A stretch of 64,000 bases of DNA. Source: an uncultured Verrucomicrobia subdivision 3 bacterium. Its GTDB lineage: Bacteria; Verrucomicrobiota; Verrucomicrobiia; Limisphaerales; UBA11358. Numbering within the stretch: the stretch's first letter is position 1; each line of letters starts with the position of its first letter. The DNA lies in assembly GCA_903918885.1 (NCBI GenBank), contig CAIXFY010000073.1, positions 1 through 64,000 on the forward strand. The letters are read 5' to 3'. The notes below the pieces were generated by a model. That model worked only from the letters and a program-made list of their open reading frames with translations, searched no databases and had not been told where the DNA came from. Of the stretch, positions 6,066 through 47,900 are shown one piece after another. Position numbers and translations under genes: made by a program.

Positions 6066-6225
6066 AATTTCGGCAATCAATTTGCGCCGAAGAATAGTGG
6101 GAACGCCTATTAAGAAAAGGAAATTTACACGCACCAGCACACTGGAAAATCTTTTTTAAAAATTCTTTGAACAAACTTTAACCCAGCCGGTCTATTTAAT
6201 CGTTAGGTCATGGGTTTGGGTTGAA

Positions 6226-6268
6226 GCGTCTGACTTTTAATGGGTTTTAAGTCAGACGCTTTTTCTTT
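6226..6268 (+). terminator. Rho-independent terminator-like hairpin, plus orientation
   Basis: GCGTCTGACTT / AAGTCAGACGC perfect 11-bp stem followed by TTTTTCTTT. Confidence 0.75.
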
Positions 6269-6543: not shown

Positions 6544-9500
6544 TTATGCGAGACGCATTTTCAGGATGAGATCCTTGCTCTCCAGTGCATCGCCATTCTG
6601 CACACAGATTTCATCCACCACGCCAGCGGCGGGTGCGTAGATGGTCGTCTGCATCTTCATGGCTTCGAGCGTGAGGAGCTTGTCGCCCTTCGCCACCTTC
6701 GCGCCCACGCTGACGGCGAGCGCGGTGACGAGTCCGGGAATCGGCGCGCCGACTTCGTTCGGTTTGGCCGAATCCGCCTTCTGTCGCGCCTTGATCGTCG
6801 GCTTGGCGGAACGATCCACGATGGCCAACTGCCGCGTCATGCCGTTCAACTCGAAATTAATCGCGCGCTTGCCCTCGGCATCCACCGCCCCGATGTTGAC
6901 GAGTCGGATGAACAGCGTTTTGCCTGACTCGATCTCCACGGAAATTTCCTGGCCGGGCTTCATCCCATAGAAAAACGCCGGCGTGGGGAGCGCGGAAAGA
7001 TCGCCGAAGGTATTTTCATTCTTGGTGAAGGCGGCGAACACTTCCGGATACATGATGTGGCTGAACACATCGTCGTCCGTCGCTTCGCGCTTGAGCTTGG
7101 CCGAAAGTTCTTCGGCAATTTTTTTGAAATTGAGCGGTTTCAACGATTCACCGGGACGACCTTTCAACGGCTTGCGGTCACCGAGAATGACGTGCTGCAG
7201 TTTCTTCGGCCAGCCGCCCATCGGTTGACCGAGGCCGCCGCTGATCATATCAATGACCGATTCAGGAAACGGCGTTGCTCCCGGTTCGAGATTCAAAACA
7301 TCCGCCGGCTTGATACCACGCGTGACCAGAAACATTGTCATATCGCCAACGACCTTGCTGCTGGGCGTCACCTTCACGATATCGCCGAAAAGCTGGTTGA
7401 CCTCCGCGTAAGTCCGCGCGATTTCCGGCCAACGATGCGCGAGGCCCATCGAGGCGGCCTGTTCTTTCAGGTTGGTGAACTGGCCGCCGGGCATTTCGTG
7501 CAGATACACTTCCGCGCTGCCGGACTTCGGCGACGTGTCGAACGGCGCGTAGTAGCCGCGCACCTGTTCCCAGTAATCGGCAAACTCATTCAGCGCATCC
7601 AAATCCAAACCCGTGTCGCGTTTGGTGAATTGCAGCGCGGCCACGATGGAATTCAAGTTAGGCTGGCTCGTCGAACCGCTCATTGAGGCAATCGCCAAGT
7701 CGGCAATATCCACGCCCGCTTCCGCTGCACTCAACACGCTCGCCGCCGCGATGCCGCTGGTGTCGTGCGTGTGGAAATGGATCGGTATGCCAATCTCTTC
7801 CTTCAATGCCTTCACCAGCGCACTCGCCGCCGCCGGTTTGCAAAGGCCGGCCATGTCTTTGATGGCCAGAATGTGCGCGCCCATCTTTTCTAATTCCTTC
7901 GCCAGCTTGACGTAATACTTGAGTGAATATTTATCGCGCGCCGGATCAAGGATGTTGCCCGTATAACAAATCGCCGCCTCGCAAATGGCGTGCGTCTCCT
8001 GCACCGCATCCATCGCGACAGTGAGATTCGGCAGATAATTCAGCGAATCAAAAATGCGGAAAATATCCATGCCGCTTGCCGCCGCGTGTTTCACAAAACC
8101 GGAAACGGCGTTGTCGGGATAATTGGAATAACCCACGGCGTTCGAGCCGCGAAAAAGCATCTGGAAACAAATGTTTGGCACGCGGGCGCGCAAGTCGCGC
8201 AAGCGCTGCCACGGGTCTTCGTGCAGGAAGCGCATCGACGTGTCAAACGTTGCCCCGCCCCACATCTCCATACTGAACAAGTTGGGCGTGCGCCGCGCCA
8301 CCGCGTCCGCCACGGCCAGCATGTCGTAACCACGCAGCCGCGTCGCGAAGAGCGATTGATGCGCGTCGCGGAAAGTCGTGTCGGTCACCAGCAACTGCTT
8401 TTGCTTCAGCGTCCACTCGGCGAACTTCTTCGGCCCGAGTTCGAGCAGCAACTGACGCGTCCCTTTTGGCGCGACCTGCTTGCGGTCATGCGTGGGAATG
8501 CGCGCAACGGTGAAATTTTCCTTCGGCACAAAACCCTTGGCCTGCGGATTGCCGTTCACCGACACGTCGCCGATGAAGTTCAGCAATTTGGTCGCGCGAT
8601 CGCGTTTGACCTTGAGCTTGAATAGTTCCGGAGTGGTATCAATCAGCGTCGTCGAAGCCTGGCCCGACTTGAAAACGTCGTTGTGAATGACGTTTTCCAA
8701 AAATGGAATGTTCGTCTTCACGCCGCGAATTCGGAACTCACGCAGCGCGCGATCCATGCGCTGTAGCGCGGCGTCAAAGGTCTGCGCGCTCACCGTGAGC
8801 TTGACGAGGAGCGAATCGTAAAATGGCGTGACCACCGCGCCGCCGTAGCCCATGCCGCCGTCGAGGCGCACGCCGAAACCGCCGGCGCTGCGATACGTCA
8901 GGATGCGGCCGTAGTCGGGTTGAAATTTATTTTCCGGATCTTCCGTCGTGATGCGGCATTGCACGGCGTAACCGTTGCGCGGAATGTCTTCCTGCGCCGG
9001 AATGCCGACTTCCTTGCCGTGCATCGGTTTGCCGTCGGCGATGAGAATCTGCGAGCGCACGAGGTCGAGACCGGTGATGACTTCCGTGACCGTGTGTTCG
9101 ACCTGAATGCGCGGGTTCATCTCGATGAAAAACCATTCCTTCGTGTCCTGATCGTAAAGAAATTCCACCGTGCCGGCGTTGTCGTATTTGATTTCGCGAC
9201 AAAGTTTCACCGCCGCCTCGCACAATTCGGCGCGCACGTTGCGATCCAAATCCACGCTCGGCGCGATTTCGATAACCTTCTGATGCCGCCGTTGCACGGA
9301 ACAATCGCGTTCGTGCAAGTGAACCACCTTGCCGTGTTTGTCGCCAAGAATTTGCACCTCGATGTGCTTCGCGCGCGGAATATAGCGTTCCAGAAACACC
9401 GCTGGATTGCCGAAGGCGCGACCCGCCTCGCCCTGCGCCTCGTCCAATAAATCCGCGAGATCACCCGGCTTGTGGACGACGCGCATCCCGCGTCCGCCGC

Positions 9501-10014
9501 CGCCAAAGGCGGCTTTGATGATGAGCGGGAAACCAATCTGCTTGGCAACCTTCAACGCCTCGGCGCGATCTTCGATGGGGTCTTCCGTGCCCGGCAACAC
9601 CGGCACGTTCACTTTTTGTGCGAGCGCACGCGCGGCAGTCTTGTCGCCCATGTTCTTCAACAAATCCACGCGCGGCCCGACGAAAATTATTCCCGCCTCT
9701 TCGCACGCCTGCGCAAACGCCGCGTTCTCGGAAAGAAAACCGTAGCCGGGATGAATGAAGTCCACGCCCTTTTCCTTCGCCAGCGCGATGATGCTGGGGA
9801 TGTCGAGATACGCGCCGACCGGCCCTTTGCCCTCGCCGACGAGATAGGCTTCGTCCGCCTTGAAACGATGAATGGCCAGCCGGTCTTCCTGCGCGTAGAT
9901 GGCGACCGTGCGGAGGCCGAGTTCCGTCGCCGCGCGAAAAACGCGGATGGCAATCTCGCTGCGGTTGGCAACGAGCAGTTTTCTTTGGCGGACAGGTGCG
10001 ATGTTGGAACTCAT
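6544..10014 (-). CDS. pyc: pyruvate carboxylase
   Basis: biotin carboxylase domain, carboxyltransferase domain (TDTTFRDAHQSLFATRLR) and biotinyl motif LEAMKMQ; about 1150 aa. Confidence 0.96.
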   Translation of the reverse strand: MSSNIAPVRQRKLLVANRSEIAIRVFRAATELGLRTVAIYAQEDRLAIHRFKADEAYLVGEGKGPVGAYLDIPSIIALAKEKGVDFIHPGYGFLSENAAFAQACEEAGIIFVGPRVDLLKNMGDKTAARALAQKVNVPVLPGTEDPIEDRAEALKVAKQIGFPLIIKAAFGGGGRGMRVVHKPGDLADLLDEAQGEAGRAFGNPAVFLERYIPRAKHIEVQILGDKHGKVVHLHERDCSVQRRHQKVIEIAPSVDLDRNVRAELCEAAVKLCREIKYDNAGTVEFLYDQDTKEWFFIEMNPRIQVEHTVTEVITGLDLVRSQILIADGKPMHGKEVGIPAQEDIPRNGYAVQCRITTEDPENKFQPDYGRILTYRSAGGFGVRLDGGMGYGGAVVTPFYDSLLVKLTVSAQTFDAALQRMDRALREFRIRGVKTNIPFLENVIHNDVFKSGQASTTLIDTTPELFKLKVKRDRATKLLNFIGDVSVNGNPQAKGFVPKENFTVARIPTHDRKQVAPKGTRQLLLELGPKKFAEWTLKQKQLLVTDTTFRDAHQSLFATRLRGYDMLAVADAVARRTPNLFSMEMWGGATFDTSMRFLHEDPWQRLRDLRARVPNICFQMLFRGSNAVGYSNYPDNAVSGFVKHAAASGMDIFRIFDSLNYLPNLTVAMDAVQETHAICEAAICYTGNILDPARDKYSLKYYVKLAKELEKMGAHILAIKDMAGLCKPAAASALVKALKEEIGIPIHFHTHDTSGIAAASVLSAAEAGVDIADLAIASMSGSTSQPNLNSIVAALQFTKRDTGLDLDALNEFADYWEQVRGYYAPFDTSPKSGSAEVYLHEMPGGQFTNLKEQAASMGLAHRWPEIARTYAEVNQLFGDIVKVTPSSKVVGDMTMFLVTRGIKPADVLNLEPGATPFPESVIDMISGGLGQPMGGWPKKLQHVILGDRKPLKGRPGESLKPLNFKKIAEELSAKLKREATDDDVFSHIMYPEVFAAFTKNENTFGDLSALPTPAFFYGMKPGQEISVEIESGKTLFIRLVNIGAVDAEGKRAINFELNGMTRQLAIVDRSAKPTIKARQKADSAKPNEVGAPIPGLVTALAVSVGAKVAKGDKLLTLEAMKMQTTIYAPAAGVVDEICVQNGDALESKDLILKMRLA

Positions 10015-10084
10015 AAATTCAGGCGCAGATGAAAGCGGAAATTGGTCTGGCAATCAATCTGAGAATCATTTTTCCAAGGTGTTT

Positions 10085-10603
10085 TCATTTTGTTTTGGAG
10101 TTCAAATTCAAACTCAGTTTCCGCCCGCGTTGACGCGATTCATCCGCCAATTTCTTCTTAAACGCTAGAACTTGACTGCGAATTTTCTCTTCACTTGCGC
10201 CCAAAATTGAAACCGCCAGCAGCCCCGCATTTTTCGCTCCGCCGATGGCCACGGTGGCCACGGGAATTCCTCCGGGCATTTGCACGATGGACAAAAGTGA
10301 ATCAAGCCCCTTCAAACTTTTGCTTTCCACTGGCACGCCGATAACTGGCAGCGGCGTGTGGCTAGCGACCATGCCCGGCAAATGCGCCGCGCCACCCGCG
10401 CCGGCGATGATGACGCGCAACCCACGCTTGTGCGCCGACTTGGCGTAACGCGCCATGTCGTCTGGCGTCCGATGTGCGGAAACCACGCGGACTTCGCATG
10501 GAACTTTGAATTCCATGCAGACCTTGTAAGCTGCCTCCATCGTCGGCCAGTCGGAATCGCTGCCCATGATAATGCCGACGAGCGGCGTAATTTTTTCTTT
10601 CAT
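10085..10603 (-). CDS. purE: N5-CAIR mutase
   Basis: [35 protein letters not shown]. Confidence 0.96.
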
Positions 10604-11796
10604 GCTTTTGTTCCAAAATAAATTTCCCGAGCTGCTCGTTCGGCAATAGCCAGCCCTTCTTCGAGCGAATTTTCCAGCACTGTGATATGTCCCATCTTGC
10701 GCCCCGCGCCACTCATCATTTTTCCGTAGATGTGGACGCGTGCTCCCGTCATTCGCAACACCCGCTCCAGCCCTAGCGGTTGGCCGGGCGCTTTTTCCGT
10801 GCCAAGCAGGTTCACCATTACTGCCGTCGGCGCGAGCATCAATGGATTACCCAGCGGCCAGCCGAGCACGGCACGGACGTGGTTCTCGAACTGCGAACAG
10901 TCACACGCTTCGATGGTGTAATGGCCTGAATTGTGGACGCGCGGCGCAAGTTCGTTGACAGCTAGATTGCCATCCGCAGTCAAAAACATTTCAACCCCAA
11001 AGCTGCCAACACCGCCCACGGCTTCAACCGCTCGCTTGGCCAGCGCTGATGCACGCTTTGCTAAATCGTCGGGAATCGATGCCGGTGCCTTCACGATGTG
11101 GCAGACGTGATTCCGCTGAATCGTCTCAACAACCGGATAAACCGCCGTCGCGCCATCGCGTCCTCGCGTGACGATAACCGCGAGTTCTTTGACGAATGGA
11201 AAGAACGCCTCAATTAACAAATCATTCTTTCCACCACCGAGCGCTTGCCAGCCGGAGGGAACATCGGTTTCCGAGCGCAGCGTGAAATTTCCCTTGCCGT
11301 CGTAGCCGTTGCGGCGCGTTTTCAAAACCATCGGCCAGCCGAAATCTTTTGCGGCAGTCAAAATTTCTTCCGGCGAATTCACCGCGCGGAAATTCGGAAC
11401 GGCAAGTCCGGCGGCTTGCAGCGCGGATTTTTGTTTAAACTTGTCCTGGGTGATGGCGATGCACGCAGCCCCGGGAAAAACCTTGTGACCTTCCTTCTCC
11501 AAAACTTCGAGGGCGGCCGCGTCCACGAATTCATTTTCGAGCGTCACCACGTCGCAACTCTGGGCAAAGCGCCGTAGCGTGTCCTCGTCACTCCAGTCGC
11601 CGATGATGCAGTCCGGAGACAACCTGGCCGCCGGGCTGAATTCGTTTTGTTCCAAGACCACGACCTCGCAACCGAGCGGCAAGGCAGCAATCGCCGTCAT
11701 GCGCGCCAGCTGGCCGCCGCCGATGATGCCGAGCCGCACCGGGAAATTTTTCGGCGCGGCGATTTTTTGAATTTCAGAATCGTAAGTTTCGTGCAT
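10600..11796 (-). CDS. purK: N5-CAIR synthetase
   Basis: [15 protein letters not shown]-grasp core, [18 protein letters not shown]. Confidence 0.96.
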
Positions 11797-11804
11797 GGCA
11801 GATT

Positions 11805-14285
11805 TCAGATTGATTCGTCGGCAAAACGATTTCCGACGAAACGGTAAATTTTTTTGCCCGCGTCTTCCATCGCAAACAAGTTCACCCAGCCGTTTTCAAT
11901 CAACTCACGCACGCCCGGCTGTTTCGCGATGATGCGTTCGATGGCGCTGCGCTCGGCCTCTATGAAAACACTCAGCCGCAGCGGCTCGTGCATCCAGCGC
12001 GTGCCGTCGTGGACGGATTGCAGCGGTAGGCCGGACTGCAAATCGCCGCCGTTGCCCTGCCAAACGCCGAATGTGCCGACGACATTGTGCAACACCTTGT
12101 TCCCGCTGCCGAAGAGCCGGTTGTTCACCGTCGAGCCGTAGTATTGCAAATTAATCCAGCTCGCCACGACCATCGGCGCGACCATGATGAGTTCCAACGT
12201 GGATTTCTCCGGGTCGAGCTGCGCGTTGTAATTGTGCAGAAAGGTTCTGCCGCCGAGGCTCAAACCTTTCGTCCGCTCGCGTGGCGCGGCGATGAACGCG
12301 GCGTTGTTTGCCAAGCCCCATTCTGGCCGCACCTGCGCCCAATCGCGGCTGCGCGCAAAGACTTTTTCGTCCAACTCCGCTTCCGGCACATCGCCGAGGC
12401 CGAGCGACGCCGCGCGTTCGTGCCGCGATTTTTTGGACGCGGCGGCGAGCCAGATTTTGATTTTATCCAGTTCCGCCGACTGGCTCACAGAAAGAGCTTC
12501 ATCTTCGTAAATTAAAATCTCATCCGTGGTCGTGTTGTGCAAACCGGCGAGAAAAACCGTTTCGGCGGGAATATAAATTCCCTGTGATTTCAACCCTCCG
12601 CGAACCGCAGGCTGGTTCAAAATGTCCGCCGCGACGCGCGCGTTGGCGTCGCCGGCGTGACCGCCGCACGCGCCGCAATCCAACGCCGAGCCGTAGGGAT
12701 TATTCGCCGTCGCGCTGCCGTGACCGCAGATCAAAACCACTTTTGCAAAATCGGCCACCAGCCCCATATTTTTCAACGCGAACGCGGCCAGCGCAATTTG
12801 GTCGGCTGGCGCGATGCCCGTTTCCAAATCGTGACCGTGTGTTCCGTTGCAGCAAACTTCGCGTTCGATTTTCGGCGCAAACTTTCCGCCGCGCGCCGCG
12901 AAGGCGGATTCCGCCCCGCCCAGCGCAAGCGAATCCTGCGCGAGCTTCACGCCGAACCATAGCCCCGCCGTTTCGACGAACGAGAAGCACGAGATGGCAG
13001 AGGTCTTGAACGAGTTCCACGCGCCGTTGACGGTCTGGCGGAAGTTCATTTCCCGCAACAGCGCGGTCTCGCCGCCTGCCGCCGCACCACGCAGCGACTC
13101 GCGCACTTTGATTTTGGGCGTCAGCAGCACCGGGCATTGCGCGCCGCCGGTTGGCTGACCGAATTTCAAATACTCAATCGTCATGCCAAAAAATCCGGCG
13201 AAGCCGATGGTCTCGACCTCGTCCGACTGTGCCTCCAGCGACCGCCGGAAAATTTCCGACCGGACATCAATGCAGAAAACCGCCTGCAACGATTTTTGCC
13301 CGGGCGCGGCAGTTTTGGATGAATGATTTTTCAGGTTCGCGATCAATTCAGATTGGTAGCCGTGTTCCAAAGCCAGTTGCGCGACATAACGCGCGATTAA
13401 ATCTGGCACAACATTTTCGTTTTCCCGTTCCAGCTTGCCAAAAGTAGTTTTCCATGCGGATAAGTTTTTCTCGCCGCCAAACTGGTTCAGCAACGCGAAA
13501 TCATAGACGAGCCGGATAGCGAGTAGTTGCGCCAGCGAGTCGTCGGTTTGGCCGACCATGCTCTTTTCACGCACGAGAAACTTAACATAGCTGCTCCAGC
13601 CGGGAACGCTCATCAGTTGCCGATGCAGAAAATTCGGCTGCGAAGTTTCCGGCGCGCCGAGTATTTTGAGCGCACTCTGGATGAATTCAAAATGGTCGTC
13701 GGGCAGCGCGGCCACGAACTCGCGGAAATTTTTCAACCCGGTCATTTCGGCGTTGGCATCGAGTTGCGCGGCCTGTTTCCATGCAGCAAACAAACCGAGA
13801 TTCCGCCACGGCATCCGCCACGAGGACTGGCCCTGGTCAAAATAGGCCGAGCACCATTTGGAAATTTCCTCGACCACGAACGCCGCCCAATCGCTGCCGC
13901 TCTGCGCGTCCAGAAAATCGGCGAAAGTAAAAACGCGCGCCGCAGCGTTTTGTGTTGAGGAAGCCGCAAGTGCACTTTTCAGCGCGGCGAGATTGGCGAA
14001 ATTAATTTCCTCCGACAAATCCGCCGGCAGATTTTCCCCGGCCAGTTTGACCGCCGCTTGAAAATCCTTTTCCTGAATCCGTCCACTGGAAATCCGCGCA
14101 CGATAAAATTCCGCCGACTCCAGCATTTCTCCGTGGCCGACCTGTTGAATCAGTTTCGCCGCCGCGACAAAATGCCGGTCGCTCAAGCCGACAAACGGAT
14201 TCACCGCGACAAAATTCTTTAACGTCCACAACGGCGGAATCCGTTTGCATGCGGACTGGACTAGGTTTTTGATGGGTTCATTCAT
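11805..14285 (-). CDS. dabA: DabA-type inorganic carbon accumulation subunit (DUF2309 family)
   Basis: AVFCIDVRSE and CGHGSATANNPYGSALDCGACGG carbonic-anhydrase-like Zn motifs; true start MNEPIKNLVQ; the upstream part of the 1138-aa track ORF is dabB read in the wrong frame. Confidence 0.92.
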   Translation of the reverse strand: MNEPIKNLVQSACKRIPPLWTLKNFVAVNPFVGLSDRHFVAAAKLIQQVGHGEMLESAEFYRARISSGRIQEKDFQAAVKLAGENLPADLSEEINFANLAALKSALAASSTQNAAARVFTFADFLDAQSGSDWAAFVVEEISKWCSAYFDQGQSSWRMPWRNLGLFAAWKQAAQLDANAEMTGLKNFREFVAALPDDHFEFIQSALKILGAPETSQPNFLHRQLMSVPGWSSYVKFLVREKSMVGQTDDSLAQLLAIRLVYDFALLNQFGGEKNLSAWKTTFGKLERENENVVPDLIARYVAQLALEHGYQSELIANLKNHSSKTAAPGQKSLQAVFCIDVRSEIFRRSLEAQSDEVETIGFAGFFGMTIEYLKFGQPTGGAQCPVLLTPKIKVRESLRGAAAGGETALLREMNFRQTVNGAWNSFKTSAISCFSFVETAGLWFGVKLAQDSLALGGAESAFAARGGKFAPKIEREVCCNGTHGHDLETGIAPADQIALAAFALKNMGLVADFAKVVLICGHGSATANNPYGSALDCGACGGHAGDANARVAADILNQPAVRGGLKSQGIYIPAETVFLAGLHNTTTDEILIYEDEALSVSQSAELDKIKIWLAAASKKSRHERAASLGLGDVPEAELDEKVFARSRDWAQVRPEWGLANNAAFIAAPRERTKGLSLGGRTFLHNYNAQLDPEKSTLELIMVAPMVVASWINLQYYGSTVNNRLFGSGNKVLHNVVGTFGVWQGNGGDLQSGLPLQSVHDGTRWMHEPLRLSVFIEAERSAIERIIAKQPGVRELIENGWVNLFAMEDAGKKIYRFVGNRFADESI

Positions 14286-14290
14286 TGCGA

Positions 14291-15892
14291 TTATTTTTTT
14301 ATCGGCCAGACTGCTGCGACCAACCGGTTGGCGAGCGTGTTGAAATAAAATCCGTTGCGCGCGTGGACATAAATTGCCTGAAAAAACGGGCGGTTCGTCC
14401 ACGCAGGCAATTCCGTCTGCACGATCAGCACGAGCAAAAACAACGCGAGCAGTGTCGCGATCAAAACAATTCCCGGCCACGAGTTGAGTTGCGAATTGAC
14501 CCACTCGTTTTGTCCGATGAGCTGGCCGAAGATTTTGTGTAACGCAAAATATATGACGACGATGACGCCGCCGAAAATTCCGCCGAATACCGCGAGCTTG
14601 AGGTTGAGCGATTGGCTCCACAAATTCCAGAGCGCGTAGGCGAGCGCCATCGCGAAAGTGCAACCGAGTGTGAAGAGCGCGGGTTCGTGCCGGTAATCCA
14701 CGCCGAAAATCCACGCGCAACCGAGCGCGAGCGCGATGGCCGTGACGAACGCGGCGACAAGCGTGAGCGGATGCGCGTTGGGTTTTTCCGTTGGCGTCCA
14801 CGCGGATTTTGCCAGGCTCACGATGCTGCCGGACGACAGAAACGCGTGCGCCTTGTAAAGCGAATGCGCCACGAGGTGCAAAACCGCGAGGCCGAACGCA
14901 CCGAGGCCGCATTCGAGCATCATGAAACCCATTTGCGCGACAGTGGAAAACGCGAGCGACCGTTTCACGCTCGCGTGCGTGAGCATGACGAGCGACGCGA
15001 AGAGCGCCGTGAACGCGCCAAACAGCGCGAGAGTGGAGAGCGCCGCCGGCGAAAGCGTGACGAGCGGATTCAACCGGATGATGAGAAAGCCGCCGGCATT
15101 GATGATGCCCGCGTGCATCAGCGCGGACACGGGCGTCGGCGTTTCCATCGTGTCGGGCAACCAACTGTGAAACGGAAACTGCGCGGATTTCAACATAGCA
15201 CCCGCGACAAGCAGGAAACAAATGGCGTTGATTTCGAGACTGCCGGTGGTCGCGCCGGATTTGTGCAATTCATTTGCGGCGTTGAACAGAGCGGAGAAAT
15301 TCCAAGCGTGAAACGTGTCGTGAACCAAAATGATCACGGCGATCATGCAGGCATCACCGAGGCGGCTGATGATGAATTTTTTCCGAGCCGCGAGCACCGC
15401 GCCAGGACGGTTTGGATAAAACAGCAGCAGTTGGTGCAGGCATAGACTCGTCGCGCACCACGCCAGCGCGAACTGAACGAGGTTGCCGGAAATCACGATG
15501 GCTAGCACCGAGCCGCCGGTGAGGCACAGCCATTTGGTGAAGCGTCCCTGCGCCGCGTCGCCCGCGAGATAGTTGACGGAGTAACGTGCAATGACCGCGA
15601 TCAAAAAGGAAACCAGCACCAGCAGCACGGCGGACAAGTTGTCGAAATAGATTCCCAGATGAAAATCGCCGGCGATTGGCAATTCCACGTCCGCAGCGCC
15701 GTTCAAAAGTAATCTAGCGGTGGCCAGCAATGCGAAAGCAAAGGCGGCAAGCGAAATGATGGCGCCCGCCTGGGCAGTGCGGATTCCATTTTGCCTGAGT
15801 AATGATTCGGGCAGGAAGCCGAAGGTAATCAGCGCAAACGAGCCGCTGGCTGCGAGCGTGGCGGTCAGAATTTGATGAATTGTGTTGGTCAT
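14291..15892 (-). CDS. dabB: DabB-type, NuoL/MrpA-like proton-conducting membrane subunit
   Basis: proton-conducting transporter motifs (FPFHSWLPDTMETPTPVSALMHAGIINAGGFL) directly upstream of dabA. Confidence 0.92.
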   Translation of the reverse strand: MTNTIHQILTATLAASGSFALITFGFLPESLLRQNGIRTAQAGAIISLAAFAFALLATARLLLNGAADVELPIAGDFHLGIYFDNLSAVLLVLVSFLIAVIARYSVNYLAGDAAQGRFTKWLCLTGGSVLAIVISGNLVQFALAWCATSLCLHQLLLFYPNRPGAVLAARKKFIISRLGDACMIAVIILVHDTFHAWNFSALFNAANELHKSGATTGSLEINAICFLLVAGAMLKSAQFPFHSWLPDTMETPTPVSALMHAGIINAGGFLIIRLNPLVTLSPAALSTLALFGAFTALFASLVMLTHASVKRSLAFSTVAQMGFMMLECGLGAFGLAVLHLVAHSLYKAHAFLSSGSIVSLAKSAWTPTEKPNAHPLTLVAAFVTAIALALGCAWIFGVDYRHEPALFTLGCTFAMALAYALWNLWSQSLNLKLAVFGGIFGGVIVVIYFALHKIFGQLIGQNEWVNSQLNSWPGIVLIATLLALFLLVLIVQTELPAWTNRPFFQAIYVHARNGFYFNTLANRLVAAVWPIKK

Positions 15893-15945
15893 TGTGTCTA
15901 GTTACAACGTTAAAAGTTTAACTATCTTTTCGAATTCGTAAAAAT

Positions 15946-15980
15946 AGATTGTTTATATCATGTTAATCGCTTATTCCGAT
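15946..15980. promoter_or_regulatory. candidate operator, copy A: AGATTGTT-N19-ATTCCGAT
   Basis: matches copy B at 20557-20591 with identical spacing; contains ATCGC-N5-CCGAT; sits upstream of dabB. Confidence 0.5.
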
Positions 15981-16296: not shown

Positions 16297-19200
16297 ATGA
16301 AATCCTGTGCAGGTAAAATAATTTTAATTGCAGCTTTGGCCTTTGCTGTTGGCCACGTTCGAGCCGCTTCGATTTCCAATGTGACGTTTACGAACGTCGC
16401 GGACAGCTCACCCCCTACCAACAATCTTACGGCGGTTGGCACGCAGGATTGGGAGATTTACTCGGACAACACCCCACCAACGACCTACGACCATAAGTTT
16501 GGCGGCAAAAGCATCGCCATGAGCGCTCCGGTAACGGCCTTGCCTGCCATATTTGAAGTGCTTGGTTCGGCCACCGTCCGGTCAAAAACGGCGTTCACTT
16601 GGACGGACGGAACGACGACTGGCGTCGTGACCGCGAACAACGTGGATGACTGCGGTTTCAAATATAGTGGCACCAATGCCACCGTAGGCTACGGAACGAA
16701 TTACGAAACCATAATCTTCGTTCCCGGCGACACCAACCCGCACACGATTCATCTTTATGGCTATTTTGCGAATAATGTAAACGGTTCTTTGCAGTTCACG
16801 GCTTCGCTTGCCGGGGCAACCACGAGCGTCACCAATCCGCCCACTGTGCTGGGCGATTTTGATTACAGCCTCACATTTCAGGCGGATCATGGCAGCGATG
16901 CGCTGGCGGTCGTTTTCACCTTTCAGAAGACAAACACCAGCACAAGCATCATGGCTGCGGCAGTTCAGGCGGCGGCCATGAGCGGGACGCCACCGGGGGT
17001 GCCGGTGGTGAACTGGCGAGTAGTGCCAGAAGATACGAATTACCCGACGAGCGAGGTCATTGTGGCGGGGGTGGCGATTGGCGACCCGAATTTTCAGAAT
17101 CCGCTGCCGTCAAATCCCTCGAATCAGGATTGCACGGCGACTTTTCAGGAAGCGATTGACCTGATGTCGGCGGCGGGCGGCGGCACGGTGTTTGTGCCAC
17201 CGGGACATTATATGTTCACGAACAGTCTGACGCTGGACGACGGCGTGATTTTGCGTGGGCGATGGGAATTACCAGGCTCGAATCAGCCGGTGGTGGGAAC
17301 AATTTTAGACATTTATGCCACGAACGCGGCGGCGTTTATTACCGGCTCGGGAGCGGAATGCGGTGTGCGCGATCTGGCGTTCTGGTATCCGCAGCAGAAC
17401 GCGACGAACCAGGTGCCCTATCCCTACACGCTCGTGAATCCTAATGGCGGGCTGCAAACCATTGAAAACATCACGCTGGTCAATTCCTATCTCGGACTCA
17501 ATCTTTATAAATGCTCTTTTGAATGTGTGCGGGGCGTGTATGGCACAGCGCTGACGACGGGAGTTTTTATTGATGCGGGCCATGCGGTGCCGCGTTTCGA
17601 TGACATCCATTTCTCACCGGATTACTGGGCGTGGTCGAAGTTGACGAACGCGCCGACGAATAGCATTGCCAAGGCGGCTCTGGCGGCCTTCATGCTGACC
17701 AATGGCATCGGCGTGGATATGCGGGAAGTGGACGGCACCTATGTGCAAAACATTACCATTTCCGGCTACAACTACGGCATCCGGTTTGCGCGCGGAGCGA
17801 GCGGCGATAACGCAGGTGGCCCGGAATTTTTCAACGTGCTGGTAACCAACTGCACCGAGGCGTTACGGTTTGATTCGACCAAGGGATTGCAAGCGTTTGG
17901 TTGCACGTTTATCGGCACGACGAACGGCTATGGGATTCACCGGTTAGCCGACCGGGGTGGAGATTTTTTCAACTGCACTATTTCGGGTGGTGCCGCTGCG
18001 TTGCTAGGCGATTCTACTAACGCCGCCATATATGTCATGAACCTACAGAGTTGCCTACTCACCGGGGTGGTCAACATCGGAGGGAACAATGCGGCGTTGC
18101 AATTGATCAGTTCATCGTTCACCGGCACTGGCACCAACGTCATCCTCAATCCCGGGGTCAATCAGGCTTTGATTTGCGGCGGCACGAATACTGGATCGGC
18201 GAATGTGTTGAACAACAGCGGCGCCGGTGCTGGGCAGGTATTGATTACGAATGGTCTGCCGCTGACGCCGCTACCCTATTTTCCGACGAGCTATCCCAAG
18301 ACGCGTAAGCCGGACAAGGTGGCGTTGTTCAACGTGACGAGCACGAATTTTGCGGGCGGCGCCAAGGGGAACGGCGTGACGAATGACACGGCGGCCATTC
18401 AGGCGGCAATTTTCGCCGCGCAAACGAACGGCGGCGGAATTGTGTTTTTCCCCGCTGGAACGTATCTGGTGACTTCGAACCTGATGGTGACCAATGGCGT
18501 GGAATTGCGCGGCATCTTTGGTGGTCGGCATGGGAACGGCAATCTGGGGAGCTTGTTGGAAATCAATGTGGGCGCGGGTAGTTCCAACGGCACGCCATTC
18601 ATCACGCTGGGCGACCGCTGCGGCATCCGAGGGATGAACTTCGATTATCCGAATCAGAACTGGCAATTGGGAACGCAGATTCCTTATCCGTATATGATCC
18701 GGTGTCAGGGAGTGACGAATTACGTGGTGGATTGCTGCGTTGGCGATGTCTATCAGGGAGTGGACTTGAACGGCGCGAAGACGGCGCTGGTGGATTATTG
18801 TTTTTTTGGTGGACTGGTCAACACCTACATCGCTCGAAACGGAGCGACGGACTGCCTGATCCAGAATTCCCATATCAAACCGCTGCAATGGTGGCTGAAC
18901 GCCAATGCCCCGCCAACCGGGGACTATCCGGCCAGCGTCATCGCCAGCACCGAGAACACCTTCATTGCGGCGGACTGCACGAACCTGACGATTTATTCCA
19001 TCTTCAACCATGCGGCGCACACCCTGTTCACGCTGCGCGGCGGAACGGGACAGGCGCTGATGCTTGGCGGCGAGGAATTGCAACGCGGTTATGTGCTCGA
19101 ATCAAATGCCCCGGCAGCGGCGGGAACATATAATTTCATCGGTTGCGGCGCGAACGTGAGTCAATTGGGAGATCAAAAGGGCTGCTACGGCTTTTGGTTG

Positions 19201-20499
19201 CAGACCAACTTCACCGGCACGGTGTCGCCGGTGTCCACCGGCATTTCTGATGCCACGGCGGACTACGATGTGCGGGTGGACAATGCGGCCGCCCGATTTG
19301 TGGCCAATGACATTAGCTTTGGCCAAGGACGCGGCATCTGCAATATCCGAGCTGCCGGCCAAGTGCAAATCAACAACGCAAGCCTGAATGAGTTGTTCAG
19401 TCTGGATGTGCCCGCCGGCGGATCGTTTACCGCTTCGCAATCCATCATGCCCCCAATGCCCTATGTCTCGCAGGCCGGGATTTTGGGCTATACAAATTGC
19501 ATCATCAACAACAGTTTTATCGCAGCCGATATGAATGAAACGCCTTATCGTCCGGTGGGGATGACGGTGGTGACGAACAATCTAGTGCCGATTTTGGTGG
19601 ATGTATTTCCAACGTTGGGGCAGACCCGGGATCCGACGGTGAGAGACTTGATCGGTTGGCATTTGGCGAGCGGGAGTAATTTTAATTTTCATGTGACCAG
19701 TCCGGGTTATGCCAACGGTGCCAGAACCAACGTGACCATTGGCATGTATTACTTGGAAGACACGGACGGCAGCATCACCGTGACCTATGACAGCACGAAC
19801 GGGCCGAAGCCCGGTGCCACCTATCTGCTGGCTGCAGCGAATGCGAGATGGACTAGCCAAAGTTTCTCGGTCACAGACGCGCGATTTTCTGGAACGAACG
19901 GCGTGGACATCAGCATCACCGCGAGCAACTGCGACCCGGTGTTCCTTTATGTTTATGTTCAATCCAGCTATCTCGGATTACCGCCGCAGTTGGTGACGCC
20001 GCCGGTGGCGCAATTCACTGGCACGCCGACCAACGGGACGCGGCCGCTGGCAGTGACGTTCACAGATAATTCCACCGGGAGCATCACCAATTTGCTCTGG
20101 AACTTTGGGGATAGCCAAACCACGAACACGATTGGCGGCGCGGTGGTGTCGCATAGTTACACCAATGCGGGCAGTTACACGGTGAGTTTGGTGGCCAGCG
20201 GTTCGGCTGGCAGCAGCACGAACACCAAGACCAGTTATATCACCGTGAACGTGCCAGCCTCGCCAAACATCGGCAGCATTAGTGTGAGTGGCAACACGAA
20301 CGTGGTGTTGACGGGCACGGGTGGTCCGACGAACGGCACATATTATTACTGGGTGCGGAGTTCAACCAACCTCACCCTGCCGTTGATCAACTGGAGTATG
20401 GTTTCGACGAACCTGTTCAATGCCGACGGCAGCTTCAGCAATGCGCTGCCCTTGAATCCAGGCAGCCCGCAGCAGTTCTACCGACTGCAACTGCCGTGA
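16297..20499 (+). CDS. giant secreted protein: two pectate-lyase-like beta-helix regions plus a PKD domain
   Basis: signal peptide; ATFQEAIDLMSAAGGGTVFVPPGHY and AAIQAAIFAAQTNGGGIVFFPAGTY; PKD repeat LWNFGDSQTTNT...VSHSYTNAGSYTVSL. Confidence 0.8.
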   Translation: MKSCAGKIILIAALAFAVGHVRAASISNVTFTNVADSSPPTNNLTAVGTQDWEIYSDNTPPTTYDHKFGGKSIAMSAPVTALPAIFEVLGSATVRSKTAFTWTDGTTTGVVTANNVDDCGFKYSGTNATVGYGTNYETIIFVPGDTNPHTIHLYGYFANNVNGSLQFTASLAGATTSVTNPPTVLGDFDYSLTFQADHGSDALAVVFTFQKTNTSTSIMAAAVQAAAMSGTPPGVPVVNWRVVPEDTNYPTSEVIVAGVAIGDPNFQNPLPSNPSNQDCTATFQEAIDLMSAAGGGTVFVPPGHYMFTNSLTLDDGVILRGRWELPGSNQPVVGTILDIYATNAAAFITGSGAECGVRDLAFWYPQQNATNQVPYPYTLVNPNGGLQTIENITLVNSYLGLNLYKCSFECVRGVYGTALTTGVFIDAGHAVPRFDDIHFSPDYWAWSKLTNAPTNSIAKAALAAFMLTNGIGVDMREVDGTYVQNITISGYNYGIRFARGASGDNAGGPEFFNVLVTNCTEALRFDSTKGLQAFGCTFIGTTNGYGIHRLADRGGDFFNCTISGGAAALLGDSTNAAIYVMNLQSCLLTGVVNIGGNNAALQLISSSFTGTGTNVILNPGVNQALICGGTNTGSANVLNNSGAGAGQVLITNGLPLTPLPYFPTSYPKTRKPDKVALFNVTSTNFAGGAKGNGVTNDTAAIQAAIFAAQTNGGGIVFFPAGTYLVTSNLMVTNGVELRGIFGGRHGNGNLGSLLEINVGAGSSNGTPFITLGDRCGIRGMNFDYPNQNWQLGTQIPYPYMIRCQGVTNYVVDCCVGDVYQGVDLNGAKTALVDYCFFGGLVNTYIARNGATDCLIQNSHIKPLQWWLNANAPPTGDYPASVIASTENTFIAADCTNLTIYSIFNHAAHTLFTLRGGTGQALMLGGEELQRGYVLESNAPAAAGTYNFIGCGANVSQLGDQKGCYGFWLQTNFTGTVSPVSTGISDATADYDVRVDNAAARFVANDISFGQGRGICNIRAAGQVQINNASLNELFSLDVPAGGSFTASQSIMPPMPYVSQAGILGYTNCIINNSFIAADMNETPYRPVGMTVVTNNLVPILVDVFPTLGQTRDPTVRDLIGWHLASGSNFNFHVTSPGYANGARTNVTIGMYYLEDTDGSITVTYDSTNGPKPGATYLLAAANARWTSQSFSVTDARFSGTNGVDISITASNCDPVFLYVYVQSSYLGLPPQLVTPPVAQFTGTPTNGTRPLAVTFTDNSTGSITNLLWNFGDSQTTNTIGGAVVSHSYTNAGSYTVSLVASGSAGSSTNTKTSYITVNVPASPNIGSISVSGNTNVVLTGTGGPTNGTYYYWVRSSTNLTLPLINWSMVSTNLFNADGSFSNALPLNPGSPQQFYRLQLP

Positions 20500-20556
20500 A
20501 TCAATTTTAGTCCAAACCGCGTAATTAAAACCGACTCACACATATTTCGAAAAATT

Positions 20557-20591
20557 AGATTGTTGTTAATTATTTTATCGGCTATTCCGAT
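20557..20591. promoter_or_regulatory. candidate operator, copy B: AGATTGTT-N19-ATTCCGAT
   Basis: contains perfect ATCGG-CTATT-CCGAT inverted repeat; ends 3 nt before the LysR start codon. Confidence 0.5.
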
Positions 20592-20594
20592 ATT

Positions 20595-21524
20595 ATGAAT
20601 TCGGCGTTTGAAAATCCCGAGTGGTTGAACTACCACCATTTGCGACATTTCTGGATGATTGCCCGCCATCGCAGCATGACCAAGGCGGCGGCGAAGTTAA
20701 AAATCTCGCAATCCACCTTGAGCGAGCAGCTCGCGGAACTCGAAGGCTGGCTTGGCCAGCAGCTCTTCGATCGACGCGGACGCGAGTTGCACCTAACCGA
20801 TGCCGGACGCGTCGCACTAGAACACGCCGAGACCATTTTTACGACCGGCCACGAACTCATCACGCGCTTTCGGCAGTCAGGTGAAACGCGGCAACGCGTT
20901 TTGCGTATCGGCGCGGTTGGGCCGCTCTCGAAAAATTTGCAGTTTGATTTCATTCAGCCGATTCTCGCCGACACGCGCACGAAAGTTGTCGTCGTGGCCG
21001 GTGCCCTGGACGAACTCACGCGGCAGTTGCACGAACACAAAGTGGATTTAGTGCTCTCAAACATTCCACTCCGAGCCGATCAGGAGCAAAACGTCTTCAA
21101 CCATCTGCTCGGCGAAGTGCCGGTGTTTCTCGTCGGTGGTAAAAAATTAAAATTATCGCCGGGAAAATTTCCGAAGTTTTTGAAAGACGTTCCGCTCTTC
21201 TTGCCCAGCCGTCAGAGCGATGTGCGGGCGGACTTTGATTTGATTCTCGCCAACGCCGGCATCGAACCGTTTGTTCATGCGGAAGTGGACGACATGGCGC
21301 TGCTGCGCCTCCTCGCGTTGTCTGGTGAAGGCTTGGCGCTGGTTTCCAAAATCGTGGTCGAACGCGAACTGCAATCCAGCAAGATTAAATTCATGGAGCG
21401 TGTGCCGGGGCTGACGGAAAAATACTACGCGCTCACCGTCCGCAAGCGTTTCGCCAATGCCTGGCTCGGTGAAATCGTCGAAGACTTCCGGCGGCGGTTG
21501 CGTGAATTGGCGGGCAAAGGTTAG
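20595..21524 (+). CDS. LysR-family transcriptional regulator, NhaR-like
   Basis: N-terminal HTH LNYHHLRHFWMIARHRSMTKAAAKLKISQSTLSEQLAELE; LysR substrate-binding domain. Confidence 0.9.
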   Translation: MNSAFENPEWLNYHHLRHFWMIARHRSMTKAAAKLKISQSTLSEQLAELEGWLGQQLFDRRGRELHLTDAGRVALEHAETIFTTGHELITRFRQSGETRQRVLRIGAVGPLSKNLQFDFIQPILADTRTKVVVVAGALDELTRQLHEHKVDLVLSNIPLRADQEQNVFNHLLGEVPVFLVGGKKLKLSPGKFPKFLKDVPLFLPSRQSDVRADFDLILANAGIEPFVHAEVDDMALLRLLALSGEGLALVSKIVVERELQSSKIKFMERVPGLTEKYYALTVRKRFANAWLGEIVEDFRRRLRELAGKG

Positions 21525-42947: not shown

Positions 42948-43483
42948 TCGACGTCCTCCACGATTTCGACGTGCGTGCCGCCGAGCGATTCGAGAAACGA
43001 TTTGGTTTCCGTGGCGCAGAATTTTTCATCTTGCGCGCCGATGAGGAGGATAAATTTATCGCGCGAGACGAGTTCAAAGCGTTTTTTATCCAGCAGCGGA
43101 TGGTGCAGGCGCGGCAACTGGTTGAGGCCGAGCATCCCGATGAGCGCACCCAACGCGCCACCCATGATGAGCATGATGTAGGCGGGCACAAAGGTCATCG
43201 GCACACTGAACATCGGTTTGCCGCCGACGATGAGGGGATAATCAAACGCGTTCGCAAACCAGATCAGACCGACGACGTTGAGGAACATGAACGCACCGCC
43301 CGCGAGCGCCACCCAGCCGACGAGCGAGTTGCCGAGTTTCATGACTTGATCCATGCCGTGAATCGGAAACGGCGTGAACGCATCCCAACGACGATAGCCG
43401 GCGTCGCGGACTTTTTCCGCCGCGTGTAAAATCGCTGCGGGCGAATCAAATTCTGCCATGAGACCGTAAACTTTTTCGCTCAT
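42944..43483 (-). CDS. actD: alternative complex III subunit ActD (DUF3341)
   Basis: GLMAEFDSPAAILHAAEKVRDAGYRRWDAFTPFPIHGMDQ. Confidence 0.92.
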   Translation of the reverse strand: MSEKVYGLMAEFDSPAAILHAAEKVRDAGYRRWDAFTPFPIHGMDQVMKLGNSLVGWVALAGGAFMFLNVVGLIWFANAFDYPLIVGGKPMFSVPMTFVPAYIMLIMGGALGALIGMLGLNQLPRLHHPLLDKKRFELVSRDKFILLIGAQDEKFCATETKSFLESLGGTHVEIVEDVE

Positions 43484-44913
43484 TGGTGGTCTCCTTTCTG
43501 CGCGCCACCCAACGGATGGTGCGGGTCGGCTTCGGGCATCACGCCTTTGACTTCAGCAATAGCAATCATCGGCAGGAATTTCACGAACAACAGATACAGC
43601 ATGAAGAACGCGCCGAGCGTGCCGATGTAAAGTCCCACATCCCAAATCGTCGGCATATATTTACCCCAGTTCGCCGGGAGAAATTCCTGATACAACGAGC
43701 CGACGACGATGACGAAGCGTTCGCTCCACATGCCGATGTTGATTAGCACGCCGATGATAAACAACGCCGCGAGGCTCGAACGGATTTTTTTGAACCAAAG
43801 CAATTGTGTCACGCAGACGTTGATACCGATGAGCGTCCAACCGAGATACAAATAAGTGTGACCGAACAGGCGATGACCGAACACCCAGCGTTCGTAGGTG
43901 TCGCCGCTATACCAGGCGATGAAAAATTCCTGCAAGTAGATGTAGTCAATGATGAGGCCAGCTACGAGCGCGAGCTTGGCCACTTTATCCATGTGCGACA
44001 TCGTGATGACTTTTTCCAGGCTGCACCATTTGCGCAGCGGCACGAGAATCACCAGCATCATGCCGAAGCCGCAGAACACCGCGCCGATGACGAAGTAGAG
44101 CGGGAAAATCGTCGCGTGCCAGCCCGCAATCTGCGAGGCGCAAAAGTCCAGACCGACGATGGAACTCACGGTGAACACGAGCAGCGTGCACAAGCCGCAG
44201 AGGACGACATAGGCTTTTTCGTAATTATGCCATTGCCGCGCCGAACCAGTCCAACCCATCGCCAGCGCCGTGAAAATGGTTTTACGCACGCGCGTCGTCG
44301 CCCGGTCGCGGAACACGGCGAAGTCAGGTATCATGCCCATGAACCAAAACAGCGTTGAAACCGTCAGATAGGTGTTCACGGCGAACACGTCCCACATGAG
44401 CGGCGATTTGAACTGCGGCCAGTTGCCGTTGGAATTTGGAATTGGAAACATGAACCAGTCGAACCACGCGCGACCGACGTGAATCGCCGGATACAATCCC
44501 GCCATCATCACGGAGAAAACTGTCATTGCCTCGGCCATACGGCCAATCGTTGTGCGCCAATGCTGCTTCGTCAAAAACAACAGCGCGGAAATCAACGTGC
44601 CGGCGTGCGCGACACCGACCCACCAGATGAAATTCACAATATCCAAGCCCCACATCACCGGATGATTGTTGCCCCAGACACCGACACCCGTGAAGACCTG
44701 ATAAAACAGGCACGTCGGAAAAATCACCGTTGCCGCGAACGCCGCGGGAATAAATAAAATCCACCACCAGCGCGGGGTCTTGCCTTCGGCGAATTCCGAG
44801 AGCTTGTCCGTCAGCGCGCCGAGACTTGGCTTGCCTTCGACAACGGGCGCGCGTCGCAGTTCTGCGGGCGGCGCGAGCCGTTTCAATTCTTCAATGTTCA
44901 GGGAGTCAGCCAT
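43480..44913 (-). CDS. actC: alternative complex III subunit ActC (NrfD-like)
   Basis: NrfD-like multi-TM, gene order. Confidence 0.92.
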   Translation of the reverse strand: MADSLNIEELKRLAPPAELRRAPVVEGKPSLGALTDKLSEFAEGKTPRWWWILFIPAAFAATVIFPTCLFYQVFTGVGVWGNNHPVMWGLDIVNFIWWVGVAHAGTLISALLFLTKQHWRTTIGRMAEAMTVFSVMMAGLYPAIHVGRAWFDWFMFPIPNSNGNWPQFKSPLMWDVFAVNTYLTVSTLFWFMGMIPDFAVFRDRATTRVRKTIFTALAMGWTGSARQWHNYEKAYVVLCGLCTLLVFTVSSIVGLDFCASQIAGWHATIFPLYFVIGAVFCGFGMMLVILVPLRKWCSLEKVITMSHMDKVAKLALVAGLIIDYIYLQEFFIAWYSGDTYERWVFGHRLFGHTYLYLGWTLIGINVCVTQLLWFKKIRSSLAALFIIGVLINIGMWSERFVIVVGSLYQEFLPANWGKYMPTIWDVGLYIGTLGAFFMLYLLFVKFLPMIAIAEVKGVMPEADPHHPLGGAQKGDHQ

Positions 44914-47900
44914 TAGCTGTTTCCTTTCGGGGTGAGACTCTGGCTCTCAAATTCTTCCGTGCTGAACGGGTCATGATAATCCGGCATCGCAGGATTCGGA
45001 TTGCGAACGCGCGCAAGATAGGTCGTGCGCGGTTTCGTCAGCAGGTTGCCGAGGACGGAATAATTCAACGGCGACAATTTCAATTTCGAGACCGAACTGT
45101 TCGCGTCGCTGACATCGCCGAACACAATCGCGCCCGCCGGACACGCCTGCTGGCACGCGGTCTTCGGAATTGTTCCCGCCGCCTCAGACAAGCGAACGTT
45201 GTCGCTCGCGCCAGCCTTTGCCTTCTGGGAAATTTTTGCGTGCTCGATGCGCTGCGTGCAATAAGTGCATTTCTCCATGACGCCGCGCATACGCACCGTC
45301 ACGTCGGGATTCTTGCTCAACTTGATCAAATCCCATTCGTCTTCCGAGCGCATCCCGCTGTCCGGATTTTTCCACCAACGGAGCAAATCCCAAACGCCAT
45401 CCGTCTTGTGCGTGAGTGTCGTGGAATAAATTGTTCCCTTCAGCTCCGTCAACGGACGCTTGTTATAATCGAGGAAATTGAAACGGCGGACCTTGTAAGG
45501 ACAATTGTTCGAGCAATAGCGCGTGCCGATGCAACGGTTATAGGCCATCACGTTCAAACCCTCCTGATCGTGGACGGTCGCAGCCACGGGGCAAACGCTT
45601 TCGCACGGCGCGGATTCGCATTGCTGGCAAAGCATCGGCTGGTTCACCGCCTGCACATCGTCAATCCACTCGGCGAACTGCTGGTTCTCGTCCGTCTGGT
45701 TCATGTCGGCCGACAGCGAGAAGCGGCTGGAATTATTTTTGCGTTTCGGATCGCTCGTGAAATAGCGGTCAATGCGCATCCAGTGCATCTCGCGGCCGCG
45801 CAACACCTGATCCTTGCCGACAATCGGAATATTGTTTTCACTCTGACACGCGACGACGCAAGTGCCGCAGCCGACGCACGCGTTCAAGTCCACCGTCATG
45901 CCCCACTGGTGCAACGCCGTCTTCTTCGCCTCGTCGAGCGGGTTCGCATAAAGCGACTGAACCACGGGCGGCTCGACGCCATGAAATTTTTCCTGCGCGA
46001 ACTCCGGCTCTTTGAGAAATTCTTCGAGGTTCGCCTCGCGCACCGCCGGACGACCTTCCATGGACCAATGATGCTGCGTGCAAGCGAGAACGTGCGTCTC
46101 GCCGGTTTTTTTGATCGTTGCACCGTTCTCGATATATTTACCGGAGAAAATTTTGTAGGCATTGAAGCCGACGCTGTTGCCGACCCGCCCTGCCCGTTCG
46201 CGACCGTAACCGAGCGCGAGGCCGAGCGAATAATCCGCCATGCCCGGCTGCGTCCAAATCGGACCTTTGACGCTCTTGCCGTTCAACGAAATTTCAACAA
46301 TGTCGCCGTTCGCCACGCCAAGTTCACGCGCGGTTTTGCGGCTGATGAGCACCGCGTTGTCCCACGTCATCTTCGTGACGGGATCGGGCAATTCCTGCAT
46401 CCAGCCGTTGTTTGCGTAACGACCATCGTCCACTTTGGAATCGCGGTAGAAGATGACTTCGAGATTGCTGCCGGAAGTGGCGACGGATTGAACCGCAGGC
46501 ACAGCCGCCTGAAACGACAGCGTTTCTGATTTGCCCGCTGTGCCGTTGGCAAAACCGTTGAATAAAAATTTCTTCCAGTCTTCCTCGGAACCGCCAAACG
46601 TGCCACGCACGATTTCGTGGGCGCTGGTCGGCGACTCGCCAGCGACGCGCGCCAGAAATTCCAATTCCGGCAAGCCACCAAACAAAGGCTGAATCAACGG
46701 CTGAACGGCAACCACGGTTCCGTCGCTAGTCGTGGCGTCGCTCCATGATTCTAAATAATGCGCCGCCGGAAAATTCCAGTCGCACTTTTGCGCCGTCTCA
46801 TCTTCGTAGTAGCCAAGGCGGACAACATTCTTCGGCTTCGCCGTCGCGGTCAAATGGTAAACCGGATTGCCGCCGAGAACCACCAGCGTGTCGATTGCAT
46901 CCAGATCGAAACCTTCGAGGCCGGTGGCCACGGCGTTCGTTGGAATAAGTCCCACCGTGTTGCCAATCGAATCGAGCAAAGAATTAATCGTGTGTGCGAG
47001 CAAATGGACTTCAAGTGGCTGGCGCTGGCCAGCAACGACCAAAACTTTTCCCGCATTCGCAACCAGATCCTTAGCACATTCTGAAACCCAATTTGAATCT
47101 ACGCCTTCAATATTACATTGCGCAGATTGGCCGAGTGGATTGCCGGTCTCATGCAAATGAGAAAGCATTGTGGAAATAGCTTTTGCAATCTCAAAAATCC
47201 TGCTCGCAGGAACTCGCAAGCGATGATCCGCACTCGCGCCCGTCAACGTGAACAATGATTCCACCGCGTAAAGCCGGCTCATCCCCTGCTCTGCCTTGCG
47301 ACCGGCGGCAAACTTGCGGATGTGATTGTGCGAATCATCTTCGCCACCGAGAAAATCGCAATCCAGCGACAGAATGACTTTCGCCTTGTCGAAATTAAAA
47401 ACCGGCTTCACCGATTGGCCGAACGCCTGCGTGGCCGCGCGCTGATGGATGCCGGAATCAATCGCGTCGTAGGTGAACCATTTTGATTTCGGAAATTTGT
47501 CCGCGATGATTTTTTGCAGACGCGCGCGGGACGGCGAGGTGCTGCTTTCGGCGAGAAAGGCCAAACCTTCGCCGGAGTTCGCCGCGAATTTCTTGGAAAG
47601 TTCGTCGAGGAAACCTAAAGCCTCTTCGCGGGAAACCACTTTGCCATCGTGCTTGAAATGGCGGGCGCGGTCGGGGTCGTAAAGGTCGAGAATGGAAGCT
47701 TGCGCGTAACGGTCGGTGCTCCCATTGCTGCCGGGATAAAGTGAATTGCCCTCGATTTTTACCGGACGGCCTTCGTAGGATTTGACCACCAGCGGAATCG
47801 CGCCGATGCGCGTGGGCATGGCGGTCGCAAAGTATTGCACGTCGCCAAAGGTATAATTCTCCGGCTGTTTGCCAAAGGGTTCAAGCTTCTCTTCAGGACG

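Follow-up and report, generated by a model that had tools for sequence, protein, structure and literature searches.

The dabB-dabA-purK-purE-pyc gene block

The window analysed here, a 64,000-nucleotide stretch (contig CAIXFY010000073.1) of a Verrucomicrobia subdivision 3-type metagenome-assembled genome (2.46 Mb, 91% complete), carries five consecutive and intact minus-strand genes, dabB-dabA-purK-purE-pyc, in which a putative inorganic-carbon pump is joined to enzymes that consume bicarbonate (HCO3−). Gene calls and Pfam domains confirmed this order, as described in the initial annotation, and the junctions are as short as had been stated there: 5 nt between dabB and dabA, 8 nt between dabA and purK, a 4-nt overlap between purK and purE, and 70 nt between purE and pyc. 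The last gap shrinks to 31 nt when the pyc start is placed at the TTG at 10053. In what follows, G000 denotes the genome of the window, the other G numbers its relatives, and the L numbers loci examined in those relatives.

The first gene, dabB (14291–15892), encodes the NuoL-like membrane subunit of DabAB, and its top PDB match is DabB2 of the solved DAB2 pump (9rd0_B, 287 bits). The Zn-containing subunit is encoded by dabA (11805–14285, ATG start), the product of which covers the whole PF10070 model (888 bits, model positions 1–747 of 747) and has DabA2 of the same structure (9rd0_A) as its top PDB match. From the alignment with DabA2 it is clear that the metal-site motifs CIDVRSE (C338 and D340), GHGS (H522) and CGAC (C537) are kept, and these four residues are putative Zn ligands. 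By sequence, the DabAB of the window is a DAC-type inorganic-carbon pump, for which we infer transport activity. A listed open reading frame with a TTG start (11805–15221) is merely the dabA frame prolonged upstream into dabB.

The following gene, purK (10600–11796), was assigned by Pfam to N5-carboxyaminoimidazole ribonucleotide (N5-CAIR) synthase and is the only PurK found in G000. The product of purE (10085–10603), an N5-CAIR mutase by Pfam, is nearer to class I (205 bits to 3lp6) than to class II (43 bits to 3rg8), and is the sole PurE in G000 apart from weak, partial, LarB-like AIRC matches. The last gene, pyc (6544–10014 with an ATG start), encodes a full-length pyruvate carboxylase of 1156 aa by Pfam, whose single polypeptide combines biotin carboxylase, carboxyltransferase and biotin domains and carries an EAMKM biotin site, and which matches PDB 2qf7 along its full length (1371 bits). 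PurK and Pyc each use HCO3− and ATP.

In a scan with promoter and terminator consensus patterns, promoter-like matches were no more numerous than in shuffled sequences, and 33 terminator-like matches were found versus 24.8 ± 5.1 in shuffles, mostly within genes. A near-perfect inverted repeat, AAGCGTCTGACTT/AAGTCAGACGCTT, lies at 6225–6266 between pyc and ndk, and may be a hairpin that ends the operon; it has no clear T-run.

Recurrence and pump exchange in relatives

A survey of the neighbourhoods of dab loci, which had been suggested in the initial annotation, showed that adjacency to purK, pyc and the phosphoenolpyruvate (PEP) carboxylase gene ppc, whose product is likewise an HCO3− user, recurs beyond this one genome. 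DabA is present in 47 of the 320 genomes of the order that were surveyed. The congener G009 carries the same five genes, dabB-dabA-purK-purE-pyc, and another congener, G018, a six-gene version, dabB-dabA-ppc-purK-purE-pyc. The refuting condition named in the initial annotation, an order limited to a single genome, therefore does not hold. The order is dabB-dabA-ppc-purK-purE in G243, dab-purK-purE in G032 and in G160, which belongs to another family, and dab-ppc in G227 and G281, while purK-purE stands on the other side of the regulator gene in G054 and G085 (purK-purE | lysR | dabB-dabA). A contig break splits ppc in G005, where both halves are consistent with dabB-dabA-ppc-purK-purE. Taken across the order, dab-purK adjacency occurs in four families and dab-ppc adjacency in four; outside the order, within the same class, dabB-dabA-purE-purK was found in G684 and purE | lysR-dabB-dabA..purK in G506. 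Since the gene set is found in independent genomes, chance, a chimera or an assembly artefact can be ruled out as its source. A gene with a PAPS-reductase domain (PAPS, 3′-phosphoadenosine-5′-phosphosulfate) adjoins the dab operon in two families, lying after dabA in G054 and between lysR and dabB in G227 (L028:2360-3328 and L060:10556-11455).

The pump itself can be exchanged. SbtA is a Na+/HCO3− transporter unrelated to DabAB, and SbtB is its PII-like partner. In the dab-free congeners G028, G029, G235 and G007, a divergent LysR gene, the product of which is 84–87% identical to the dab-associated LysR, faces genes for SbtA-SbtB, in part preceded by one for a beta-carbonic anhydrase (beta-CA), and these are followed by purK-purE; in G007 contig ends interrupt purK, so that purE-pyc lies on a second contig. 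The same LysR/sbt/purK-purE layout is seen in G056, from another family. The pyc gene comes last in the operon with both pumps, namely in G009 and G018 (dab) and in two of the four sbt congeners (G028 and G007). SbtA occurs in about 50 of the 320 genomes of the order. At the sbtAB loci that were examined, the neighbours include purK, purE or both in 16 genomes (10 families) and ppc in 5 genomes (3 families). The distinct arrangements comprise dabBA-purKE, purKE|lysR|dabBA, dabBA-purE-purK, CA-sbtAB-purKE and purKE-sbtAB. Under random placement with a 6-kb neighbourhood, such adjacency has a probability of about 3 × 10−5 to 1 × 10−20 per family set, a rough estimate in that the null model takes no account of horizontal spread. 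In a PurK tree, dab-linked and sbt-linked sequences interleave, as do those of G009 (dab) and G029 (sbt).

Gene remnants are also present. In G232 dab has been lost, and a C-terminal remnant of dabA survives ahead of a disrupted ppc, after which come purK and purE; in G087 a purK remnant sits between dabA and ppc; and purK remnants lie before sbtA in G092 and, as a further copy, in G167 (remnants at L063:8189-8386, L164:4801-5028, L165:4844-5071 and L092:10913-11041). Such remnants show that genes of the module have been gained and lost repeatedly.

Since the pump is swapped at the same slot, its pairing with these enzymes looks functional rather than accidental. One might instead suppose that purKE and pyc landed by chance beside a transferred dab cassette and are functionally unlinked to it. 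The PurK tree does mix families, G160 and G056 falling within the group of the genus, which suggests horizontal spread of one block, and purK is absent from many dab loci. Such hitchhiking is nevertheless strained by the pump swap: two non-homologous pumps are combined with three different HCO3− enzymes in several gene orders and many families, and both pump types share one operator (see below). We therefore regard it as very improbable.

Some sbt loci (L148, L158, L180 and L091) adjoin TerC, Na+/Ca2+ exchanger, CNNM or voltage-gated-channel-like genes, which perhaps manage sodium for the Na+-dependent SbtA, and TerC precedes purK in G240. Together with the NuoL/Mrp-like nature of DabB, these neighbours could be taken to mean that the role of DabAB lies in the homeostasis of ions or pH, or in energy coupling, rather than in carbon supply. 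The alignment of DabA with DabA2, the retained metal-site motifs, and the exchange for SbtA-SbtB, in which SbtA transports bicarbonate and SbtB is the PII-like protein that accompanies it, all speak for carbon supply, and we give the homeostasis explanation the least credence of those considered.

LysR regulator and two-box operator

A LysR-type regulator gene, lysR (20595–21524, plus strand, 309 aa), and its operator had been missed in the initial annotation. By tblastn its product is 89% identical to the LysR that faces dabB in G018, and the PF00126 and PF03466 domains were found in the LysR protein of a relative. The PDB matches of the window protein belong to the LysR family; that to CbbR (5y2v) spans residues 13–109 only and is not the best match.

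Alignment of the intergenic regions of relatives gave a two-box consensus, ATCGGAATAACCGAT-N7-ATAGAAACAATCTAT, which is common to dab and sbt operons and consists of 37 bp with two T-N11-A palindromes in a 22-bp register. In the window, intergenic alignment, a weight-matrix scan and a pattern search placed it upstream of dabB on the minus strand (15944–15980) as ATCGGAATAAGCGAT-N7-ATATAAACAATCTAT. The pattern search of 80 whole genomes returned 24 sites in 22 genomes, every one at a dab or sbt locus by comparison with the neighbourhoods surveyed above, and the reversed control pattern returned no site in the same genomes. A role of the operator in governing other genes was rejected, there being no site away from dab or sbt loci in this set; it therefore probably marks a narrow regulon with a single target. 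LysR is predicted to bind at the 37-bp operator.

In most relatives lysR is divergent from dabB and directly beside it, whereas in the window a 4.2-kb gene (16297–20499, plus strand), encoding a 1400-aa pectate-lyase-like/PKD protein according to Pfam, separates the two. Because lysR adjoins the inorganic-carbon gene in nearly all relatives, this gene has probably been inserted. A second, partly decayed operator copy (20555–20591, minus strand), detected by alignment, weight-matrix scan and pattern search, lies directly upstream of lysR, so that one copy stands on each side of the 1400-aa gene, as if the operator had been duplicated when lysR and dabB were separated.

Proposed bicarbonate supply, its consumers and known systems

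The association of PurK with a pump was further checked among 49 genomes of the genus. PurK is encoded in 9 of 9 dab genomes, in 4 of 4 sbt genomes and in 3 of the 36 without a pump (Fisher p 2 × 10−9, a test that ignores relatedness), and one of the three pump-free PurK genomes retains a dabA remnant. PEP carboxylase occurs in 7 of the 13 pump genomes versus 4 of the 36 others. These p values are inflated because the genomes are related.

All members of the genus have an AIRC-family match, which in three of them is of the weak LarB-like type only. At least 18 members of the genus carry a class I-type PurE gene and a beta-CA gene on one contig, no more than about 1.5 kb apart (for example G004 C359 (L136), G009 C44, G243 C382, G005 C79 and G240 C182), with the class checked in G004, where the possibility that this PurE is of class II was rejected by sequence. 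Many genomes with such a PurE have no detectable PurK, and the arrangement is an apparent alternative way to run the carboxylation of aminoimidazole ribonucleotide. In G000 the CA-linked PurE is absent, and a search for the beta class of carbonic anhydrase detected none.

It could be that the pump acts as a general replacement for carbonic anhydrase and that purK, purE and pyc are co-transcribed with it merely as growth genes, with the supply unmatched to them. G000 has no beta-CA match while most of its relatives have one, free HCO3− is not channelled, and DabAB and carbonic anhydrase complement each other in Staphylococcus aureus and Escherichia coli (PMC6689103) and in C. necator (PMC9894237). 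However, other pump genomes retain a beta-CA, some sbt versions carry a carbonic anhydrase inside the operon itself, and it is HCO3− users (PurK, PEP carboxylase and Pyc), not random growth genes, that recur as partners. We consider this explanation unlikely, while giving it more weight than either of the two above.

A hidden RuBisCO has also been considered as the bicarbonate consumer. The initial annotation saw none in the window, and this now extends to the whole of G000, where PF00016 has no match. PF00016 does match 10 of the 42 pump-bearing relatives tested (family members at L194, L195, L196, L198, L199 and L200). The protein of one representative relative, when compared with PDB, was nearest to the RuBisCO-like 3nwr (425 bits; others ⩽195). 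RuBisCO was accordingly rejected as the consumer, no genuine one having been found in G000 or in the one relative's protein so compared.

Taken together, these observations favour, with good though not full confidence, an operon under LysR control that matches inorganic-carbon supply to demand in a freshwater heterotroph. DabAB would drive the uptake of CO2/HCO3− and raise cytoplasmic HCO3−, while PurK (with PurE) and Pyc, plus PEP carboxylase in relatives, would spend it on purines and oxaloacetate. By binding its two-box operator, LysR would turn on the pump and the carboxylases together, the switching signal most likely being scarce CO2. The proposal that the genes form one unit for bicarbonate-consuming biosynthesis rather than for RuBisCO is thus supported, being borne out by ppc in the operons of relatives, the SbtAB swap, the co-occurrence of PurK with a pump and the lack of a genuine RuBisCO. 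Free bicarbonate need not go to these enzymes alone, however: the pump probably provides for the cell as a whole, as MpsAB does in S. aureus, and G000 has no detectable beta-CA.

Several points weigh against this reading. Pairs of purK and purE are common operons anyway. Many dab loci (for example in G012, G033 and G152) consist of lysR-dabBA only, with no adjacent carboxylase gene, and the coupling need not be under selection for a mobile cassette to spread. Most pump genomes, unlike G000, encode a beta-CA and therefore have another source of HCO3− besides the pump. Independent pairs on the rpoB tree, where the rpoB sequence of G006 gives a long branch that is not reliable, number two to three to none in the expected direction, too few for significance (p 0.25). 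Finally, transport activity, co-transcription, induction at low CO2 and bicarbonate limitation are all deduced.

A bolder version, on which our opinion is evenly divided, holds that heterotrophic Verrucomicrobiota possess a dedicated LysR-switched 'bicarbonate economy' module. In it, one slot would accommodate DabAB or the unrelated SbtAB, and a single-target operator would wire this slot to HCO3−-dependent enzymes in varying combinations (PurK/PurE, PEP carboxylase and Pyc). The module would decide whether the cell makes its purines from HCO3−, with a pump and PurK, or through a PurE that lacks PurK and stands next to a carbonic anhydrase.

Photosynthesis and autotrophy are the usual context in which inorganic-carbon pumps are discussed. 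In the present case it is the genome that joins a pump to the bicarbonate-using steps of ordinary biosynthesis, the pump exchange serves as a natural control, and the pairing makes the question of which reactions limit heterotrophs at low CO2 open to genetics. The 37-bp operator provides a sequence marker for the regulon, the presence of PurK follows carbon supply among close relatives, and the arrangement suggests that freshwater Verrucomicrobiota experience CO2 limitation. Elsewhere in the window (43480–48242), a gene for an NrfD-like membrane protein adjoins one for a 1109-aa protein with 4Fe-4S domains, a pair similar to part of a module of the alternative complex III type.

Each part of the system is already known. 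The DabAB/DAC pumps of autotrophs (Halothiobacillus DAB2; PDB 9rd0) have the same two subunits and metal-site motifs and a divergent LysR gene beside the operon, and lysR is also found beside dab in Proteobacteria. Unlike the DAC operons of autotrophs, that of the window, where no RuBisCO was found, runs into purK-purE-pyc (with ppc in relatives) instead of carbon-fixation genes. The cyanobacterial SbtA-SbtB pair, with the same PII-like SbtB and sometimes with a beta-CA, occupies this locus in sister genomes, but here in Verrucomicrobiota without detected RuBisCO proper and adjoining purKE or ppc.

The closest precedent is MpsAB of S. aureus (PMC6689103, PMC8552792, PMC8567241), likewise a DabAB homologue in a heterotroph. 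According to PMC6689103, MpsAB is needed at the CO2 level of air, and its mutants led to the proposal that it supplies Pyc, acetyl-CoA carboxylase and purine carboxylation; the idea of DabAB serving heterotrophic carboxylations is known as well. The passages searched mention no carboxylase gene in the mpsAB operon, whereas here the block includes the consuming enzymes, one operator is common to both pump types, and SbtAB can take the place of DabAB. A general nutritional need for HCO3− has been argued (PMC9894237), PEP carboxylase is listed among the HCO3− enzymes (PMC10880623), and with PurK, PurE can draw on HCO3− when CO2 is low, while genomes with PurE only are thought to need high CO2 (PMC10880623). 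The open-access papers searched did not describe purK next to dab or sbt. As far as this literature shows, what is new is the pump and its consuming enzymes in one operon, the exchange of DabAB and SbtAB in a single position, an operator common to both, and the association of PurK with the pump: the CO2 dependence of PurK/PurE has been tied to the genomes of autotrophs (PMC10880623), and here PurK tracks a linked pump within one genus.

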